Part shown: piece by piece, positions 2,569-18,660 of the stretch
Position numbering within the stretch: position 1 is the stretch's first letter
Layout: each line of letters starts with the position of its first letter
Assembly: GCA_024279945.1 (NCBI GenBank)
Contig: JAJRRA010000045.1
Coordinates: forward strand, 1 to 64,000
DNA from: Gammaproteobacteria bacterium
Lineage (GTDB): Bacteria > Pseudomonadota > Gammaproteobacteria > Xanthomonadales > SZUA-36
DNA length: 64,000 nt
Direction of reading: 5' to 3'
The notes under the pieces: generated by a model
The model's input: the letters and a program-made list of their open reading frames with translations, nothing else
What the model was told of the DNA's origin: nothing
The model's database searches: none
Program-made: the position numbers and the translations under genes

Positions 2569-2643
2569 TGCGGTGAAGTGTTCAGGCAACACGCCGGTCT
2601 CATAAGCCGGAGATTACTGGTTCAACTCCAGTCACCGCATCCA
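2569..2643 (+). tRNA. phage-encoded tRNA with CAT anticodon (Met or lysidine-type Ile)
   Basis: 75 nt folding as a cloverleaf: acceptor TGCGGTG/CACCGCA (7 bp), D stem GTGT/ACAC, anticodon stem CCGGT/GCCGG with loop CTCATAA (anticodon CAT), T stem ACTGG/CCAGT with loop TTCAACT, discriminator T and an encoded CCA. A37 and T33 are in place. CAT can be elongator tRNA-Met or tRNA-Ile2 (modified by TilS); sequence alone does not decide. The short D loop and A at position 8 are unusual. It lies between a terminator and the lysis genes. Confidence 0.85.
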
Positions 2644-10418: not shown

Positions 10419-10539
10419 TCTGCTGATTTTTGGAGGCATGGCCATGCTGTTTTATGGATTACACCAAGCCTATCCGCCTGCTGCTTATGTAGTGGTAGGA
10501 GCGGCTCTGATATTCCTGGGACTGAGGTTTAACAAATGA
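10375..10539 (+). CDS. 54-aa two-helix membrane protein between terminase and portal
   Basis: A small ORF from ATG 10375 to TGA 10537-10539, overlapping the TerL 3' end by 44 bases and the portal ATG by 4 bases (ATGA). Two hydrophobic segments (GLFIDLLIFGGMAMLFYGL and AYVVVGAALIFLGL) are joined by a short loop. The tight coupling to the portal start argues that it is translated. Short membrane ORFs at this site occur in some HK97-like phages; the role is unknown. Confidence 0.6.
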   Translation: MTKFPRFTLTGLFIDLLIFGGMAMLFYGLHQAYPPAAYVVVGAALIFLGLRFNK

Positions 10540-11734
10540 TTTTTGACCGGCTTGCGAGAGAAACGGTAGCTGACCGTACAGACCTGGGCAGAACTTCGTC
10601 CAGGATGTTTGGTCTCCCGCCCGCCGGTGTTCCAGTTGACGAGCATTCAGCCCTGAAGTTCGGCGCAGTATTTGGCTGTGTGAAAGTGATTTCAGAGTCC
10701 CTGATGATCCTGCCCTGGCGGGTACTAGAAACCGTGAATGGATCCCGCGAAGCGGCACCAGATCACCCGGTTGATCCGCTGCTCAAGAGCAGACCAAATC
10801 CGGAGATCCCGGCCTATTCGTTCGTGTCAACCTTGACCGCTCATGCTTTGTTGCAGGGCAACGGCTATGCAGAGATCGAGCGGGATCGAGCTGGCCGGCC
10901 ACTGGCTATGTGGCAGCTGGATCCAGCCCGCGTAAATCTGGAACGCGATAGCCTGGGCCAGCTCTATTACAAGGTTCGGAACGACCAGGCTCAGGACTCT
11001 CAGGTTCCTCCGGAGGATATGTTTCATCTGCGTGGGCCGAGCTACGACGGCCTGACCGGTCATAGCATTGTGAGTTTAGCCCGTGATGCAATCTCCGCCG
11101 GCCTGGCAGCGGAGCGCTTTGGCAGTACATTTTCGGCAACGGTGCGATTCCAGGTGGGATCGTCCAGCATATTGAAGGCACTAAACTCAAGGCATTCGAT
11201 CCTGATACGCTCGAGAATTTTTATGAGTCATGGGAAGAACGCCTCAAGGGGTCGGCCAAGGGCAACAAGGTCATGTACCTGGATCCCGGGCTGCAATACA
11301 AGAAGCTGAGCATACCGCCGAACGATGCCCAGTTCATCGAGACACGGAAACTGTCCGTACCCGATATCTGCAGGTGGTTCCGGGTTCCGCCGCATAAAGT
11401 GCAGGATCTGGAAAAGGCTACATTCTCGAACATAGAACAGCAGTCAAAAGAATTCACCGAGGACGCGATTATTCCCTGGGTTACACGCTGGGAGCAGGAA
11501 GCCAACCTGAAGCTGGTCGACGATCCGTACTATACAAAAATGAATATTCAGGCACTGCTGCGCGGCGACTCAGCTGCCCGCGGGGAGTGGTATCAACGCA
11601 TGATGGACCGGGGCGTATACACCATTAACCAGGTGCTGGCGAAGGAAGACGAAAACGGCATTGGACCGGAAGGAGACAAGCGCATGGTGCCGCTGAATAT
11701 GACCACCCTCGAACGACTTGGAGAAAAGCAATGA
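10536..11734 (+). pseudogene. portal protein, HK97 family, broken by a 1-nt frameshift
   Basis: Two overlapping frames together make one HK97-type portal of about 399 aa. Frame A (10536-11309) carries the N-terminal part to FGSTF at about residue 198. It then turns to nonsense. Frame B (open before 11273, ending at 11734) continues FGNGAIPGGIVQHIEG...SIPPNDAQFIETRK...FRVPPHKV, the conserved portal C-terminal half. The break is at the T run 11130-11133; one added T restores FFGNGAIPGG. It overlaps the protease by 4 bases. It is either a decayed gene or a base-calling deletion. Confidence 0.88.
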
Positions 11735-12671: not shown

Positions 12672-13964
12672 ATGAATAAGCTCAAAGAGCTTCGCGCCCG
12701 CCTGCAAAGCCTTAGCGAGCAGGCCCAGGCTATCGTGGATCAGGATGAAATGTCCGACGAAGATTCAGCGCACTTTGATTCCCTGATGGGCGACATTGAA
12801 ACCGTCAAGGCCAGCATTTCCAGGCATGTGCAGATCGAGGCGCATACTGCAGAAATGATGGCTTCTGCTGGTCGCCGGACCGGCGCTGAAGTACCGGATG
12901 GCGCGTCCTTTGAAGGCGGCGAACGCCGTGAGGAACAGGATCCGTGGGCAGGCTTTGCCGGACCTGGCGAGTTTACCCAGGCCGTAGTGGCTGCATCCGC
13001 CGGGAATATAGATCCCCGGCTGGCAGCCATACCGGAACTCATGGGAGCGCCGTCAAATTACCACGTCGAGCGTGGTACGGATGAGGGTTACATGGTTCCT
13101 CCGGCACTGCGGGACGGTGTGTTCGAGGCCGTTGATGCGGTGGAGGACATTGTCAACATGGTTGACGATGAGCCGACCACCTCAAACGCGGTGCAATTGA
13201 TCGCTGACGAGTCAACTCCTTGGGGTGCAACAGGAGTCCAGGCATACTGGGCCTCTGAAGCCAGTCAGTTCACCGCATCAAAGGCGGCGACAAAAGCCCA
13301 GCTCCTGCAGCTCCACAAGCTGTATGCGTTTACCACGGCATCGGATGAGATCCTGGAAGACGGCCCCAGGCTGTTTGATCGCCTGACCCGCAAGGCGGGC
13401 CTGGCCATTGGCTGGAAAGCCTCCGAAGCCATTTTCAACGGTACGGGCGCTGGGCAGCCGCTTGGCTTCATGCGGGCGGCTTCTTTGGTTACCGTTGCCA
13501 AGGAAGGTAGTCAGACGGCCGTCACCGTCAATGCGGATAACATTGCAAAAATGTATGCCAGGAACATCAACCCCGGCAGGGCCATGTGGTTTGTGAACCA
13601 GGACGTGCTGCCGGAACTGCTCACCATGACCCTTGGTAACCAGCCGATCTGGATCCCGCCGCAGGCCGGCTTTGCAGCCGCTCCTGGCGGCATCCTGTTG
13701 GGCCGCCCAGTGTTGTTCTCTGAGCACTGTGCAACCCTCGGCACCAAGGGTGATGTTGTGTTTGGTGACCCGCTCGGATACTACGCTCCGCGTAAGAACG
13801 GCGTGAAGTTCGCCAGCTCCATGCACCTCTATTTCGATTACGATCTGGAGGCATTCCGCTGGACGTTCCGTTTGGGCGGTCAGCCCTTCCTGAGCGCCGC
13901 CGTCAGCCCCGCCAAGGGCAGTAGCACCAAGAGCCACTTTGTGACCCTGGCTGTCAGGGCCTGA
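12672..13964 (+). CDS. major capsid protein, HK97 fold
   Basis: A 430-aa protein. Residues about 1-65 form a charged coiled coil (MNKLKELRARLQSLSEQ...), the HK97 delta/scaffold domain normally removed by the prohead protease. The capsid body starts near residue 110. Conserved HK97-like elements include ILEDGPRLFDRL, GTGAGQPLGFM, MWFVNQD and LLGRPVLFSE. The length and gene order portal-protease-capsid fit. It is preceded by GAGGTGT 6 bases before the ATG. Confidence 0.92.
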   Translation: MNKLKELRARLQSLSEQAQAIVDQDEMSDEDSAHFDSLMGDIETVKASISRHVQIEAHTAEMMASAGRRTGAEVPDGASFEGGERREEQDPWAGFAGPGEFTQAVVAASAGNIDPRLAAIPELMGAPSNYHVERGTDEGYMVPPALRDGVFEAVDAVEDIVNMVDDEPTTSNAVQLIADESTPWGATGVQAYWASEASQFTASKAATKAQLLQLHKLYAFTTASDEILEDGPRLFDRLTRKAGLAIGWKASEAIFNGTGAGQPLGFMRAASLVTVAKEGSQTAVTVNADNIAKMYARNINPGRAMWFVNQDVLPELLTMTLGNQPIWIPPQAGFAAAPGGILLGRPVLFSEHCATLGTKGDVVFGDPLGYYAPRKNGVKFASSMHLYFDYDLEAFRWTFRLGGQPFLSAAVSPAKGSSTKSHFVTLAVRA

Positions 13965-14037: not shown

Positions 14038-14484
14038 ATGAACCCGAATATCAAACCTTCAAACCGCGGGGTGCTGGCAGCTGTTATTGACCCAGATGCT
14101 CTCACCGCGGCAACACACACTTCTGGCTGGGTCAGTATGGTTGACTTTGGCGCCATCATGGCTGTCATCATGGCCGGAACACTTGGCGCAAGTGCGACAG
14201 TGGACGCGAAGCTGGAGCAGGCAACGGACAGCTCTGGCACCGGCACCAAGGATATTTCCGGCAAAGCGATCACGCAACTGACCCAAGCCGGGACAGACAG
14301 TGACAAGCAGGCCATCATTAACTGCCGCTCGGACGAATTGGATGTAAACAACAGTTTCACCCATGTTCGTTTGAGCATTACCGTGGGCACAGCAACGTCT
14401 GACGGCGGTGGGTTGATCCTCGGTTTCGATGGCAGGTATCAGCCGGTTGCTGATGCCAGCACGGTCGACGAGGTAGTGGACTGA
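14038..14484 (+). CDS. virion protein next to capsid, possible head decoration
   Basis: A 148-aa protein. The pattern (SMVDFGAIMAVIMAGTLGASATVDAKLEQATDSSG...) is beta-rich and matches small phage proteins found right after the capsid gene, thought to be head-associated. It is bracketed by a hairpin on each side, so it is likely to be an abundantly expressed unit. No catalytic motif. Role is inferred from position. Confidence 0.55.
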   Translation: MNPNIKPSNRGVLAAVIDPDALTAATHTSGWVSMVDFGAIMAVIMAGTLGASATVDAKLEQATDSSGTGTKDISGKAITQLTQAGTDSDKQAIINCRSDELDVNNSFTHVRLSITVGTATSDGGGLILGFDGRYQPVADASTVDEVVD

Positions 14485-14553: not shown

Positions 14554-15150
14554 ATGGCTGAAAAACTGATCACGGCACCAACTGTTGAGCCGGTCACACT
14601 GCCTGAAGCGAAAGCGCAGCTCTATGTGACTGACACCGCCGATGACATGCTGATCACCAGCAAGATCAAGGCGGCACGGTGGCTGGTGGAAAAGTACCTC
14701 AATCGCGCCCTGGTCCAGCAGACCTGGAAGCTGCAGCTGGACGCATTTCCAGCCATTATCCGCCTGGCGCGCCCACCACTGAATTCAATCAGCTCTATCC
14801 AGTATGTTGACACGGATGGCACGACACAGTCCCTGGATACGTCAAAGTACCAGGTGGACAACATCAGCGAACCGGCCCGAATCGTGCCAGCGTATGGTGA
14901 GACCTGGCCCAACACCAGGGGTCAGATTGGAGCGGTGACCGTAACGTATGTGGCTGGCTATGACGGTGACGGCGCCAGCCCCGAGGATCTGACCGCTAAT
15001 ATCCCGCAGACGATCAAGGACGCTATCCTGCTATTGGTAACAGAGCTTTATGAAAACCGGGAAGTAAGTGTCATTGGCACTATCCTGTCTTACAACTCAA
15101 CGATTGAGTCTCTACTTTTTGCCCACCGGGTAAGGCCAATTATTCCATGA
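14554..15150 (+). CDS. head-tail connector protein (gp6-like / phiE125 gp8 family)
   Basis: A 198-aa protein. The N-terminal part (PVTLPEAKAQLYVTDTADDMLI) is the typical helix of gp6-type adaptors (x-LxEAKxHLR-x-D). W-KLQLDAFP and VTYVAGYDG are also typical. It would form a ring under the portal. The start overlaps nothing, 16 bases after the terminator T run; its stop overlaps the next start by 4 bases. Confidence 0.82.
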   Translation: MAEKLITAPTVEPVTLPEAKAQLYVTDTADDMLITSKIKAARWLVEKYLNRALVQQTWKLQLDAFPAIIRLARPPLNSISSIQYVDTDGTTQSLDTSKYQVDNISEPARIVPAYGETWPNTRGQIGAVTVTYVAGYDGDGASPEDLTANIPQTIKDAILLLVTELYENREVSVIGTILSYNSTIESLLFAHRVRPIIP

Positions 15151-15740
15151 GCGTTTGGGTGTTGGTCGGATCTGGCCCGAGCCTGATCCAGGAAGACATC
15201 GACCTGGCTCGTGATCGGGCCCGGGTGATGGTAATCAATGACAATTACCGCCGTGCGATCTGGGCCGATTATCTGTATGCCGCGGATCTGATGTGGTGGC
15301 ACAACCATTATGACCTGGTCAATGAATACTTCCAGGGAGAGCTCTGGACTCAGGATGCAGACGCGGTAAAGCTCTATGACAGGCTCAACTACATTGAGTC
15401 GATCGAGGGGGTTGGACTCAGTAAAGATCCGGCGATCATTCACCAGGGCAGCCTGAGTGGATACCAGGCCATCAACCTGGTATATCACTGGGGCGCCAAG
15501 GTCATCTTATTGTTGGGTTACGACATGCAAAAGACCGGAGGCCAGGGCCATTGGTTCGGGGATCACAAGGGGCGGATGAACAACGCCAGCAGTTATGGCC
15601 AGTGGAACCATTGGTTTCAGTCTATTGACCCGGCTGAGTACGGGATCCGGATCGTCAACTGCAGCCGGCAAACGGCCCTGGACAATTTCCCGCGGATGCC
15701 AATAGGTGAAGCACTTGAACGATACAGCACGGCAGATTGA
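15147..15740 (+). CDS. DUF115 / MptE-like Rossmann protein of phage
   Basis: A 197-aa protein beginning VWVLVGSGPSL, the phosphate-binding start of the DUF115/6-hydroxymethylpterin-kinase-like fold. It continues with VMVINDNYRRAIWADYLYAADLMWW, typical of phage members of the family. Later IIHQGSLSGYQAINLVYHWG and ILLLGYDM fit a Rossmann core. Bacterial DUF115 proteins act in flagellin or surface glycosylation. It is the first of three enzymes inserted between connector and head-closure genes. Substrate unknown. Confidence 0.7.
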   Translation: MSVWVLVGSGPSLIQEDIDLARDRARVMVINDNYRRAIWADYLYAADLMWWHNHYDLVNEYFQGELWTQDADAVKLYDRLNYIESIEGVGLSKDPAIIHQGSLSGYQAINLVYHWGAKVILLLGYDMQKTGGQGHWFGDHKGRMNNASSYGQWNHWFQSIDPAEYGIRIVNCSRQTALDNFPRMPIGEALERYSTAD

Positions 15741-16275
15741 GCGGGCGAAATATGAGCGGATATACAAACTGCCAGACTACAAGATGGGCGCTGCCCGCTT
15801 ATTGGACGCACAGGATGATGTAAGGGGTCTACCTTTCAGAACATCCTATCTGGATGTAGGGTGCGGCCGCGGGGAAATGCTGGATTTCGCAGAGGCTGAA
15901 GGGTTCGTTCGGGTTCAGGGTGTCGAAGCAGTTCCTTACCTGTGTGATGGCGGGCGGGTTATTCAGGCTGATGCCTGGGACCTTCCATTCAAAGATCGAG
16001 AATTTTCAGCGGTGAGTATGTTCGATGTAATCGAGCACCTGCTTCCGGCGGATGAGATATCTGTCCTTGAGGAGCTCAAGCGCGTTGCCTTTCGTCGCGT
16101 GATCCTGACCGCAAACAATCGGCCCAGTAGATCCCTTGGGGTTGAGCTCCACATCAACACCAAGCCCTATGAGACCTGGGACGAGATATTCCGAGAGGTC
16201 TTTAATGGCTGGACGGTGAACTGGAAGCCTGGCAAAAGGTATGTATCAGAAACATGGGAAATGCTACGTCAATAG
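15706..16275 (+). CDS. class I SAM-dependent methyltransferase
   Basis: A 189-aa protein from GTG 15706. Motif I is LDVGCGRGEML (about residues 48-58), motif II region VQGVEAVPYL, motif III VIQADAWDLPF and a motif IV-like SMFDVIEHLLP, the usual order of a class I methyltransferase. It overlaps the previous gene by 35 bases and the next by 22, so the three genes of the cassette are coupled. It probably methylates a sugar or lipid-linked small molecule; the target is inferred from its neighbours. Confidence 0.8.
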   Translation: MKHLNDTARQIERAKYERIYKLPDYKMGAARLLDAQDDVRGLPFRTSYLDVGCGRGEMLDFAEAEGFVRVQGVEAVPYLCDGGRVIQADAWDLPFKDREFSAVSMFDVIEHLLPADEISVLEELKRVAFRRVILTANNRPSRSLGVELHINTKPYETWDEIFREVFNGWTVNWKPGKRYVSETWEMLRQ

Positions 16276-17057
16276 AAATCTATTGCAACCAGGCACCACA
16301 CCAGATTGAAGCGGCCCGGATCTTTGACGAAGGCCTGGCCAGGCATGGAATCAAGGTACAGATCAAATCGCCACACGAACCACGCTGCGCTGACTTGGCT
16401 GTAGTGTGGGGGCACCGGTATACCTATCTCCACCAGAGGGATTACCTGGTGATGGAGTGTGGCTATATCGGTGACCGGATGCAGAACATCAGCCTCGGGT
16501 TTAACGGGCTCAATGGACGTGCTACTTTTCCGCGGCCGAACGGGGAAGACCGGGCCGGGCAATGGAAGCGTAAGCTGAAACATTTTCACTTTGGGCAATA
16601 CGTCCTGATCATGGGCCAATGCCCAGGTGATGCCAGCATTCCCGGACTTGATGTCGGGGTATGGGCTGAGGAAGCAGCGGTTGAGGTTCGGAAGCATGTC
16701 GGCCATGAGATCTATTTCAGACCGCACCCTCTACAGAATATCCAGACCAGCCTTCCTCAGAAAAGTGGGGATCTGGCTAACGCCCTGGCACACGCTCACC
16801 TGGTGGTTACCTACAACTCAAACAGTGGGGTGGATGCGATCCTGGCGGGTTGTCCGGTAGTTGCCTATGACCGGGGATCCATGGTCTATGACCTGGCCAG
16901 CCACGATGGTAGCTACAAAGTACCTGCTGACCGCGGAGACTGGCTCCAAAGAATTTCATATTGCCAATGGTCAAGGGATGAAATCCTGACCGGTAAAGCC
17001 TGGGAAGTGTTGTATGAGAGTTGGAAATCTACGCAATCGGATCACACTGCAGCCTAA
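16254..17057 (+). CDS. GT-B-like glycosyltransferase / capsule-polysaccharide-type protein
   Basis: A 267-aa protein. The C-terminal half (VVTYNSNSGVDAILAGCPVVAYDRGSM) matches the sugar-nucleotide-binding end of GT-B enzymes of the KpsC/KpsS capsule type. An HPL motif (FRPHPLQNI) precedes it. The N-terminal half is short compared with full GT-B enzymes. It is the third gene of the DUF115/methyltransferase/GT cassette, overlapping its neighbours on both sides. Donor and acceptor cannot be read from sequence. Confidence 0.65.
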   Translation: MGNATSIEIYCNQAPHQIEAARIFDEGLARHGIKVQIKSPHEPRCADLAVVWGHRYTYLHQRDYLVMECGYIGDRMQNISLGFNGLNGRATFPRPNGEDRAGQWKRKLKHFHFGQYVLIMGQCPGDASIPGLDVGVWAEEAAVEVRKHVGHEIYFRPHPLQNIQTSLPQKSGDLANALAHAHLVVTYNSNSGVDAILAGCPVVAYDRGSMVYDLASHDGSYKVPADRGDWLQRISYCQWSRDEILTGKAWEVLYESWKSTQSDHTAA

Positions 17058-17358
17058 GTCTGAAGTACAGGATTCGACCGGGGATCCGGTGAACACATGG
17101 GATACCGCCAACCAGGTCGAAGTCGCGGGATCCATTAAGGCACTGAACGGTCGGGAATTGATTGAGGCTCAGAAAATAGAATCCCAGGTCCTCTACACCA
17201 TCATGATTCGCAATACCTCTGATGTGTCCAGTGTGGATCATTCCTGGCGGGCCGTGAGTGGCGGGAAGAATTACGCAATCCATGCGGTAATTCCTCATGA
17301 CCAGAAAGGCCGCTGGCTTGCACTGCAGTGCTCCGAGGGGATCCAGGATAATGGCTAG
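17014..17358 (+). CDS. head closure / head-tail adaptor protein (SPP1 gp16-like)
   Basis: A 114-aa beta-barrel protein. MRVGNLRNRITLQ is the standard start of the family, followed by a WDTANQVEVAGSIKALNGREL block and a conserved C-terminal region. It seals the connector after packaging. It overlaps the preceding GT gene by 44 bases and the next gene start by 8 (ATGGCTAG). Confidence 0.85.
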   Translation: MRVGNLRNRITLQPKSEVQDSTGDPVNTWDTANQVEVAGSIKALNGRELIEAQKIESQVLYTIMIRNTSDVSSVDHSWRAVSGGKNYAIHAVIPHDQKGRWLALQCSEGIQDNG

Positions 17359-17793
17359 TCAGTCTGATCTGATCTGCGTAACACGATCAAGAAATTAAAA
17401 CAACTGCCTGGTCAACTTTCAGGAAAGGGCGGGGGCCCGATCCGGAAAGCGTTATTTCAAGCTGCCAAGGTAATCGAGCTTGAAGCGGAGCAGCGTGTTG
17501 TAAAAGTGACAGGCCGGGTTGAGAGTGCAATAAAGAAAGCCCGGGACCGGAATCCAAGATCATTGCCAGGCAGACCAGCTGAGGTCTATCACGTCGGCGT
17601 CAACATGGGAAAGATGTCTAAACCAAAGACCGCTTATTACTGGTGGTTTCTTGAAAATGGAACCGCCAAGATGGCCGCCCGGCCATTTCTACGGCCAGCC
17701 TTTGAATCCAAAAAACGAGAAGCCGTCCGGCGGTTTAGTGAAGTGCTGAAAAAAGACGTGGATAGGCTGGAACGAACAGGTGGCAGGCTGTGA
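17351..17793 (+). pseudogene. HK97 gp10-like tail-neck protein, frame broken by a 5-bp duplication
   Basis: ATG 17351 overlaps the previous stop and reads MASQSDL, then ends after 15 codons. Downstream, another frame reads LRNTIKKLKQLPGQLSGKGG...EAEQRVVKVTG and the usual gp10 C-terminus (YYWWFLENGTAKMAARPFLRPAF). A tandem TCTGA TCTGA at 17363-17372 explains the break: removing one 5-bp copy joins MASQSDL to RNTIKKL and gives about 145 aa, the usual family length. Without repair only 95 aa from GTG 17506 can be made. Confidence 0.8.
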
Positions 17794-18143
17794 CAGTAAA
17801 CACCACAATTTACGGCTTGTTGTCTGGAGCAAGCGACGTAGCTGCACTTGTTGGCACACGCATTATCCCGGGCGTCGCCAAAGAATCGACAGACGCCCCA
17901 CGGATCACCTACCAAACAATTTCAGACCTGCCATACAGCTTGTTGGCTGGCGGGAGTAACGGCAAGAAGGCCCGGGTCCAGGTGAACTGCTGGGCCACAA
18001 CCCGCAGCGGAGCTGATGATTTGGCAGCCAAAGCAAAAACTGCACTCGAGGCCAGCGGCTATATTGTTGGTGGTATCGATGATTATGACGCGGAGGCCCA
18101 GCTCCATGTCACTCGTTTTGACTGGAGCGTTATTACCTCCTGA
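17790..18143 (+). CDS. tail completion / tail terminator protein (DUF3168 family)
   Basis: A 117-aa protein from GTG 17790, overlapping the previous stop (GTGA). MTVNTTIYGLLSGASDVAALVGTRIIPG and the later LPYSLLAGG...VQVNCWA match the DUF3168/gp17-type neck protein that caps the tail tube. Length is normal. It follows the gp10-like gene as in HK97-type phages. Confidence 0.82.
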   Translation: MTVNTTIYGLLSGASDVAALVGTRIIPGVAKESTDAPRITYQTISDLPYSLLAGGSNGKKARVQVNCWATTRSGADDLAAKAKTALEASGYIVGGIDDYDAEAQLHVTRFDWSVITS

Positions 18144-18243: not shown

Positions 18244-18660
18244 ATGGCTGGATATATTGATACACAAGGCACCATTCTTAAAATAGGCGATAGTGGCAGT
18301 CCTGAAGCATTTACCACGATCCCCAACATTGTCGATATCGATGGCCCGTCTGCAGCGGCCACTGAAAAGGATGCCACAACCCTGGCGAGCACCGCAATCG
18401 AAAGCCGCCCGGGCCTGGTCGACTGGGGCAGCCTGAATCTTGAAATGATGTGGGATGAGCGTGACACAGTGCATGCTGGTATGCGCGCAGACTTCAATGC
18501 AAAGACTGTGCGGAACTTCCAACTCATCGATGCAGGATCACCTACAAAAACATACTCTAGCACCGGGTGGATCAAGACCCTGCCTGCGAACTATTCACTC
18601 AATGAATTAGTTCGGGCATCTGTTGAAATCCGCCTGACAGGCCCTCTGACGGTTGCCTGA
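18244..18660 (+). CDS. major tail tube protein
   Basis: A 138-aa beta-rich protein. The sequence begins MAGYIDTQGTILKIGD, with PNIVDIDGPSAAATEKDAT and later SLNLEMMWDERD and SSTGWIKTLPANYSLNELV. This is the pattern of siphovirus tail tube proteins of the lambda gpV/TP901-1 type. It has its own leader after a hairpin and a good binding site (CGGAGG), consistent with high expression. It is followed by the chaperone genes as in all long-tailed phages. Confidence 0.82.
   Translation: MAGYIDTQGTILKIGDSGSPEAFTTIPNIVDIDGPSAAATEKDATTLASTAIESRPGLVDWGSLNLEMMWDERDTVHAGMRADFNAKTVRNFQLIDAGSPTKTYSSTGWIKTLPANYSLNELVRASVEIRLTGPLTVA

Follow-up and report, generated by a model that had tools for sequence, protein, structure and literature searches.

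Why should enzymes that appear suited to glycan synthesis be encoded among the genes that join the head of a phage to its tail? The question is raised by the first 64,000 nucleotides of contig JAJRRA010000045.1 (assembly GCA_024279945.1), the window hereafter, from a gammaproteobacterium of the Xanthomonadales lineage SZUA-36. Here, where an HK97-like prophage encodes its head-tail joining proteins, genes for a protein related to Maf and DUF115 proteins, an S-adenosylmethionine (SAM)-dependent methyltransferase and a KpsC/WbbB-like glycosyltransferase lie between the gp6-like connector gene and the head-completion gene. An earlier note on this DNA had placed these five genes here with overlaps of 4 to 44 bases. 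Both claims were borne out, the genes being on the forward strand, with PF05135, PF08241 and PF05521 among the supporting matches (Table 1), and with overlaps of 4 bp between the connector and Maf-like genes (15147–15150), 35 bp between the Maf-like and methyltransferase genes (15706–15740), 22 bp between the methyltransferase and glycosyltransferase genes (16254–16275), and 44 bp between the latter and the head-completion gene (17014–17057). This layout suggests that the trio would be co-expressed late with the virion genes. The reading favored here, with a probability of about 50%, is that the trio is a phage-encoded, late-expressed glycosylation cassette that attaches a methyl-capped ulosonic acid to a virion protein by O-glycosylation.

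The KpsC/S label that had been given to the glycosyltransferase was weak for the single sequence (PF05159, E 0.019), but was backed by profile and structural comparisons. In the PDB, a profile of 40 family members matched only WbbB (GT99) and KpsC (best E 1.7e-4), and the top ten Foldseek matches of an AlphaFold2 model (predicted local distance difference test score, pLDDT, 92.6) all were KpsC or WbbB, with E values of 1.2e-6 to 7.2e-5 and template modeling (TM) scores of 0.46–0.56. The signature of retaining 3-deoxy-D-manno-oct-2-ulosonic acid (Kdo) transferases comprises QxxxD, (K/R)xHP and a catalytic Glu (PMC9587256, PMC12887879). Residues Glu-68, Asp-126, Arg-156, His-158 and Pro-159 were invariant in 40/40 phage members and Gln-122 was present in 39/40. 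Gln-122 and Asp-126 constitute a QxxxD that aligned with the WbbB and KpsC motif, the (K/R)xHP motif for binding of cytidine monophosphate (CMP) is R156-P-H158-P159, and Glu-68, the putative general base, aligned with a KpsC Glu at a low score. By profile, fold and active-site residues, the protein belongs to the CMP-ulosonate enzyme families and is predicted to be of the retaining β-Kdo transferase type. It resembles the β-Kdo transferases WbbB, KpsC (GT107) and KrkA (GT140) in QxxxD, RxHP, a conserved Glu that may correspond to theirs, and a related fold, but differs from them in an identity of about 11–15% at the TM scores given above, in a length of only about 267 residues, and in the lack of a PHROG family for any of the 40 members. 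The alga Tetraselmis is known for Kdo-rich scales. Several proteins of the giant algal virus Tetraselmis virus 1 have the same KpsC-like fold (BFVD A0A2P0VNK4, A0A2P0VP54).

The DUF115 label of the Maf-like protein also was weak when the window sequence was considered alone (PF01973, E 0.042), but was backed by the PHROG 4603 match (Table 1) and by matches to PF01973 in 29 of 34 family members (best E 8.3e-9). Alignment by hhalign of the family profile with genomic Maf-like proteins covered 184 columns of the MAF_flag10 core (97.1%, E 4.8e-11), with the motifs GPSL, LAxxxGA..I.L.G.D and H..G in common. Against the PDB, GT42 sialyltransferases of the CstII type were the only matches below E 0.01 for the Maf-like profile A1 (7.7e-5), and the match was weaker with profile A4 (0.018). 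A search of 143 genomes with PF06002 (CST-I) yielded no usable sialyltransferase set. As the 197 residues of the phage protein correspond to the core domain alone and the flanking N- and C-terminal Maf domains are missing, the protein appears to be a Maf-core relative rather than a full Maf. Its profile matches also assign it to the CMP-ulosonate enzyme families. Maf enzymes O-glycosylate Ser/Thr residues of flagellin with nonulosonic acids, and a clostridial Maf enzyme transfers N-acetylneuraminic acid, and in E. coli also Kdo, to Ser/Thr (PMC11339370). In contrast, flagellin would be an unexpected acceptor in a phage.

The third enzyme is a class I SAM methyltransferase of generic type, and its distant PDB matches include sugar O-methyltransferases; its phage family has a mean column identity of 54%. 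In the window's genome, which is 97% complete, kdsB for CMP-Kdo synthetase (TIGR00466, 234.6 bits) adjoins lpxK, and no NeuB homologue was detected. Because kdsB is present and NeuB was not found, CMP-Kdo, an essential lipopolysaccharide precursor, is the most likely donor, as it is the only CMP-ulosonate with a synthesis gene found in the host genome. The proposal in the earlier note that the set builds or attaches a methylated sugar gains support, and these gene and protein comparisons narrow the donor class to CMP-activated ulosonic acids, with Kdo the likeliest.

Conservation of the trio was assessed in 86 phage and prophage loci that bear the methyltransferase, from which same-contig duplicates were removed. 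IMG/VR was scanned with the methyltransferase as probe and the relatives found were mostly 41–56% identical; scans with the Maf-like protein alone and the glycosyltransferase alone produced no locus and one locus, respectively. All loci were searched with custom profiles of the three enzymes and of morphogenesis genes, and the labels of flanking genes rest on iterated profiles. The counts are of loci rather than independent events, as some phages are near-identical and many environmental loci are fragments. The complete trio was present in 45 of the 86 loci, nearly always in the head/neck block and in the order Maf-like protein, methyltransferase, glycosyltransferase; only in L143 did the glycosyltransferase precede the methyltransferase, and the gp6-like gene sometimes lay inside the set. 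The trio was located between the capsid and gp6-like genes in 18 loci, around the gp6-like gene in seven, between the gp6-like and head-completion genes in four plus the window, between the portal and head-completion genes in two, and between the tail terminator and major tail protein genes in two. The remaining trio loci lacked one recognized flank or fell outside these slots, and in three further loci the methyltransferase and glycosyltransferase genes directly preceded the large terminase gene. Thus, the position between gp6 and head completion that the earlier note had described is real, but it is just one of the exact slots, of which there are at least five. The note had named random placement in other phages as evidence that would speak against a link with the virion; this was not observed, and in many different phages the set keeps to the morphogenesis block. 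At least 16 changes of slot were counted on the methyltransferase tree, in which many branches are weakly supported; either the trio moves, therefore, or the neck genes shuffle around it, while it stays within this block.

The gene junctions also are conserved. Of 48 adjacent pairs of methyltransferase and glycosyltransferase genes, 45 overlapped, mostly by 4 bp. The Maf-like and methyltransferase genes overlapped in 38 of 43 pairs, among which a few fused open reading frames (ORFs) were counted, and 4 bp again was commonest. The trio forms a conserved unit of overlapping genes, and its association with virion morphogenesis genes goes far beyond chance. The notion that the methyltransferase is a host housekeeping gene was rejected, as it was found only in the window's genome among 369 genomes of the host's class, and close relatives occurred in just four of the 80 genome-contig loci kept, all four alphaproteobacterial and three of them among recognized phage structural genes. 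The Maf-like protein and methyltransferase form one polypeptide in five ORFs from three lineages (L016, L160/L161 and L164/L165; examples in Table 1). Moreover, in the environmental podoviruses L146, L152, L158 and L162 the gene order is major head protein, Maf-like protein, methyltransferase and tail tubular protein A, and no glycosyltransferase was detected; the Maf-like protein encoded just before the methyltransferase is divergent (hhalign 81%, E 1.2e-5 against profile A4). The methyltransferase is bound more closely to the Maf-like protein than to the glycosyltransferase. On account of the fusions and the podovirus pair, methylation may fall on the first sugar itself.

Such sets already are visible in databases without a described function. 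PHROG 4603, to which the Maf-like protein belongs, is labeled "alpha-2,3-sialyltransferase" and occurs in 74 phage records, including those of Pseudomonas phages D3, PMG1 and PAJU2, P1 and P7, Caulobacter and Brevundimonas jumbo phages, and Klebsiella phage Eowyn. The hosts are Gram-negative, except in unlabeled records and three records from algal culture. Tetraselmis viridis virus S20 (L200) has an alga given as host, yet it is an ordinary tailed phage, and its head genes are followed by two Maf-like genes, a glycosyltransferase gene and a methyltransferase gene. The earlier note knew of no described system with this trio at this place, whereas a related trio does exist in the isolated phages D3, PAJU2 and Eowyn, though its function is not described. 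Detrevirus D3 (orf7, orf12 and orf13), PAJU2 (gp10–gp12), Psp6 and Eowyn (gp005–gp003) encode a Maf-like protein, a second transferase and a methyltransferase as in the window, and in D3, PAJU2 and Psp6 the set likewise is in the neck region. However, the second transferase in these phages is weakly TibC/heptosyltransferase-like (PDB 4rb4, E 0.0044) rather than KpsC-like, the order is Maf-like protein, transferase, methyltransferase, and the methyltransferase is only distantly related. These transferases (L002:7748-8572, L003:5519-6343, L005:5897-6724 and L197:6574-7461) share a conserved C-terminal Cys-rich stretch (CxC...C) that recalls the iron-binding TibC family. The Caulobacter jumbo phages CcrSC and CcrColossus possess a Maf-like gene followed by genes for two KpsC-like transferases and a methyltransferase; the set resembles that in the window, but has extra transferases and is located between tail and lysis genes. 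Literature searches for the trio, for the D3/PAJU2 sialyltransferase and for phage KpsC recovered no description; PmgO, PmgP and PmgQ are absent from the text of the P1 virion proteome paper, and the CcrColossus paper leaves the Maf-like, KpsC-like and methyltransferase enzymes undiscussed.

A further parallel is the cluster O mycobacteriophage Corndog, in which gp35–gp38, located between portal and protease, encode an O-methyltransferase and glycosyltransferases. The enzymes are made in infected cells and are absent from virions, and capsid modification was proposed (PMC4351075). Virion glycosylation in mycobacteriophages later was reported (Freeman 2023, as cited in PMC12691614). Glycosyltransferase and methyltransferase genes lie within the virion structural block in Corndog as in the window, but the host is mycobacterial and the slot is that between portal and protease. 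No Mycobacterium phage was among the matches listed in the phage collection for the three window enzymes and three relatives. The Corndog cassette appears to be analogous in kind rather than homologous, with enzymes that are unrelated by sequence comparison.

In the favored scheme, the Maf-like protein would transfer an ulosonic acid, most likely Kdo, from host CMP-Kdo to a Ser/Thr residue in a protein of the head, neck or tail. The glycosyltransferase would add a second ulosonic acid by retaining double displacement with Asp-126 as nucleophile, Glu-68 as base and His-158 in CMP binding, and the methyltransferase would cap the glycan or its first sugar. We infer the donor, the order of steps, the acceptor and the benefit, which might be shielding, stability or receptor contact. 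A particle protein is favored as acceptor because the set lies inside head/neck genes in both siphoviruses and podoviruses. Several points weigh against the scheme. The Caulobacter jumbo phages place the set by tail and lysis genes instead of the neck. No acceptor was identified, and no fourth gene for an acceptor or partner co-occurs with the trio; the families that recur nearby are all ordinary ones of capsid-protease, tail and scaffold type. Neither CstII nor Maf was among the top 50 Foldseek matches of the AlphaFold2 model of the Maf-like protein (pLDDT 95), the best of which were generic Rossmann proteins (E 2e-3), and the PF01973 family also contains pterin pyrophosphokinases. Pseudaminic acid is a possible substrate for KpsC homologues, and Kdo is not proven as donor on this account (PMC12887879). 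Finally, the P1 homologues pmgO, pmgP and pmgQ are dispensable for laboratory growth (PMC10695390), and any function of the cassette is for this reason probably conditional. We advance more tentatively the wider proposal that Gram-negative phages share a hitherto undescribed virion-Kdo system in which host CMP-Kdo is diverted, a head or neck protein is O-glycosylated by a stand-alone Maf core, and the glycan is extended by a KpsC-like family absent from PHROGs and methyl-capped.

The cassette instead might modify the host envelope late in infection, placing methylated Kdo or heptose on the lipopolysaccharide core or capsule so that released virions avoid adhering to debris or superinfection of infected cells is prevented. 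Relatives of KpsC, KpsS and WbbB work on envelope glycans (PMC12887879), glycosyltransferase clusters of jumbo phages were proposed to change surface polysaccharide (PMC7824862), and the location beside tail and lysis genes in the Caulobacter phages fits such a role. Nevertheless, this explanation is considered unlikely: the set is constantly placed inside head/neck genes in siphoviruses and podoviruses, the acceptors of Maf-type relatives are proteins (PMC11339370), and there is no flippase, membrane segment or O-antigen-type partner. The highest mean hydropathy over 19 residues in the three enzymes is 1.01, and with neither a hydrophobic segment nor a recurrent fourth gene the set lacks the membrane flippase and membrane glycosyltransferase of Gtr-type prophage operons for lipopolysaccharide conversion.

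It is improbable that the genes are hitch-hiking cargo of the late operon with no particle-linked role. The repeated changes of slot and the dispensability of the P1 homologues (PMC10695390) would suit cargo, but the moves are almost entirely within the morphogenesis block, and order, 4-bp overlaps and fusions are kept among relatives at roughly 30–55% identity. There is very little to recommend the view that the DUF115-like protein is a pterin or nucleotide pyrophosphokinase and that the target of the set is DNA or a small molecule and not a glycan acceptor. MptE gives PF01973 its name and thiamin pyrophosphokinase was among the weak fold matches of the model, whereas the profile links lead to Maf and CstII and not to pyrophosphokinase sequences in the PDB, and the partner glycosyltransferase has invariant Kdo-transferase motifs. 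A DNA-modification set was put aside as the transferases have the motifs of CMP-ulosonate enzymes.

To our knowledge, proof that the virions of tailed phages are glycosylated exists for few of them, mycobacteriophages being the notable example. If the favored reading is correct, a common and recognizable gene set in phages that infect Gram-negative bacteria would furnish a sequence marker for modified virions, would explain a family that in D3, P1, Caulobacter phages and others bears no annotation beyond "alpha-2,3-sialyltransferase" or "putative morphogenetic function", and would link virion assembly to the lipopolysaccharide precursor pool. The predicted mass shifts of a virion protein are about 220 Da for Kdo and 14 Da for a methyl group.

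Table 1. Positions of the enzyme trio and other prophage features in the window, and of fused ORFs in related loci.
Feature	Position	Strand	Evidence or remark
gp6-like head-tail connector	14554-15150	+	PF05135 5.7e-11, phrog_442 1.9e-28
Maf/DUF115-like putative CMP-ulosonic acid O-glycosyltransferase, 197 aa	15147-15740	+	phrog_4603 7.2e-46
SAM-dependent methyltransferase, GTG start, 189 aa	15706-16275	+	PF08241 (Methyltransf_11) 4.4e-10
KpsC/WbbB-like glycosyltransferase of predicted retaining Kdo-transferase type, 267 aa	16254-17057	+	PDB profile, Foldseek, motifs
Head-completion/head-closure protein	17014-17358	+	PF05521 2.8e-20, phrog_25 7e-16
HK97-type major capsid protein	12672-13964	+	Homology to annotated capsid genes of related loci
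Tail terminator	17790-18143	+	PF11367 9.6e-14, phrog_347
Major tail protein	18244-18660	+	phrog_158 5.8e-16
Small protein 3′ of capsid gene	14038-14484		phrog_28483, 69% identical in L021
Terminase	start 8706		
Portal gene	10536-11734		Two ORFs, different frames
Protease	start 11731		
gp10-like gene (HK97 gp10)	17352-17793		ORF only for C-terminal part, 17506-17793
Tape measure	start 19432		
Tail fibre	start 22576		
tRNA-Met (CAT)	2569-2643		Inside prophage, near endolysin and spanin genes
Maf-methyltransferase fusion	L016:3879-5114		
Maf-methyltransferase fusion	L161:1105-2274		
Maf-methyltransferase fusion	L165:7347-8975		

The portal gene has a frameshift near 11130, with homologues matching one frame before this position and another after it, and the gp10-like gene seems to be frameshifted near its start with the N-terminal part apparently gone. 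This copy of the prophage may be defective, or there may be assembly errors at these points, because of the two apparently disrupted genes. All three enzyme ORFs are open, and the enzyme genes are not distinct from their neighbors in GC content or in hydropathy of the products. The small protein encoded 3′ of the capsid gene might decorate the capsid and might serve as the acceptor.

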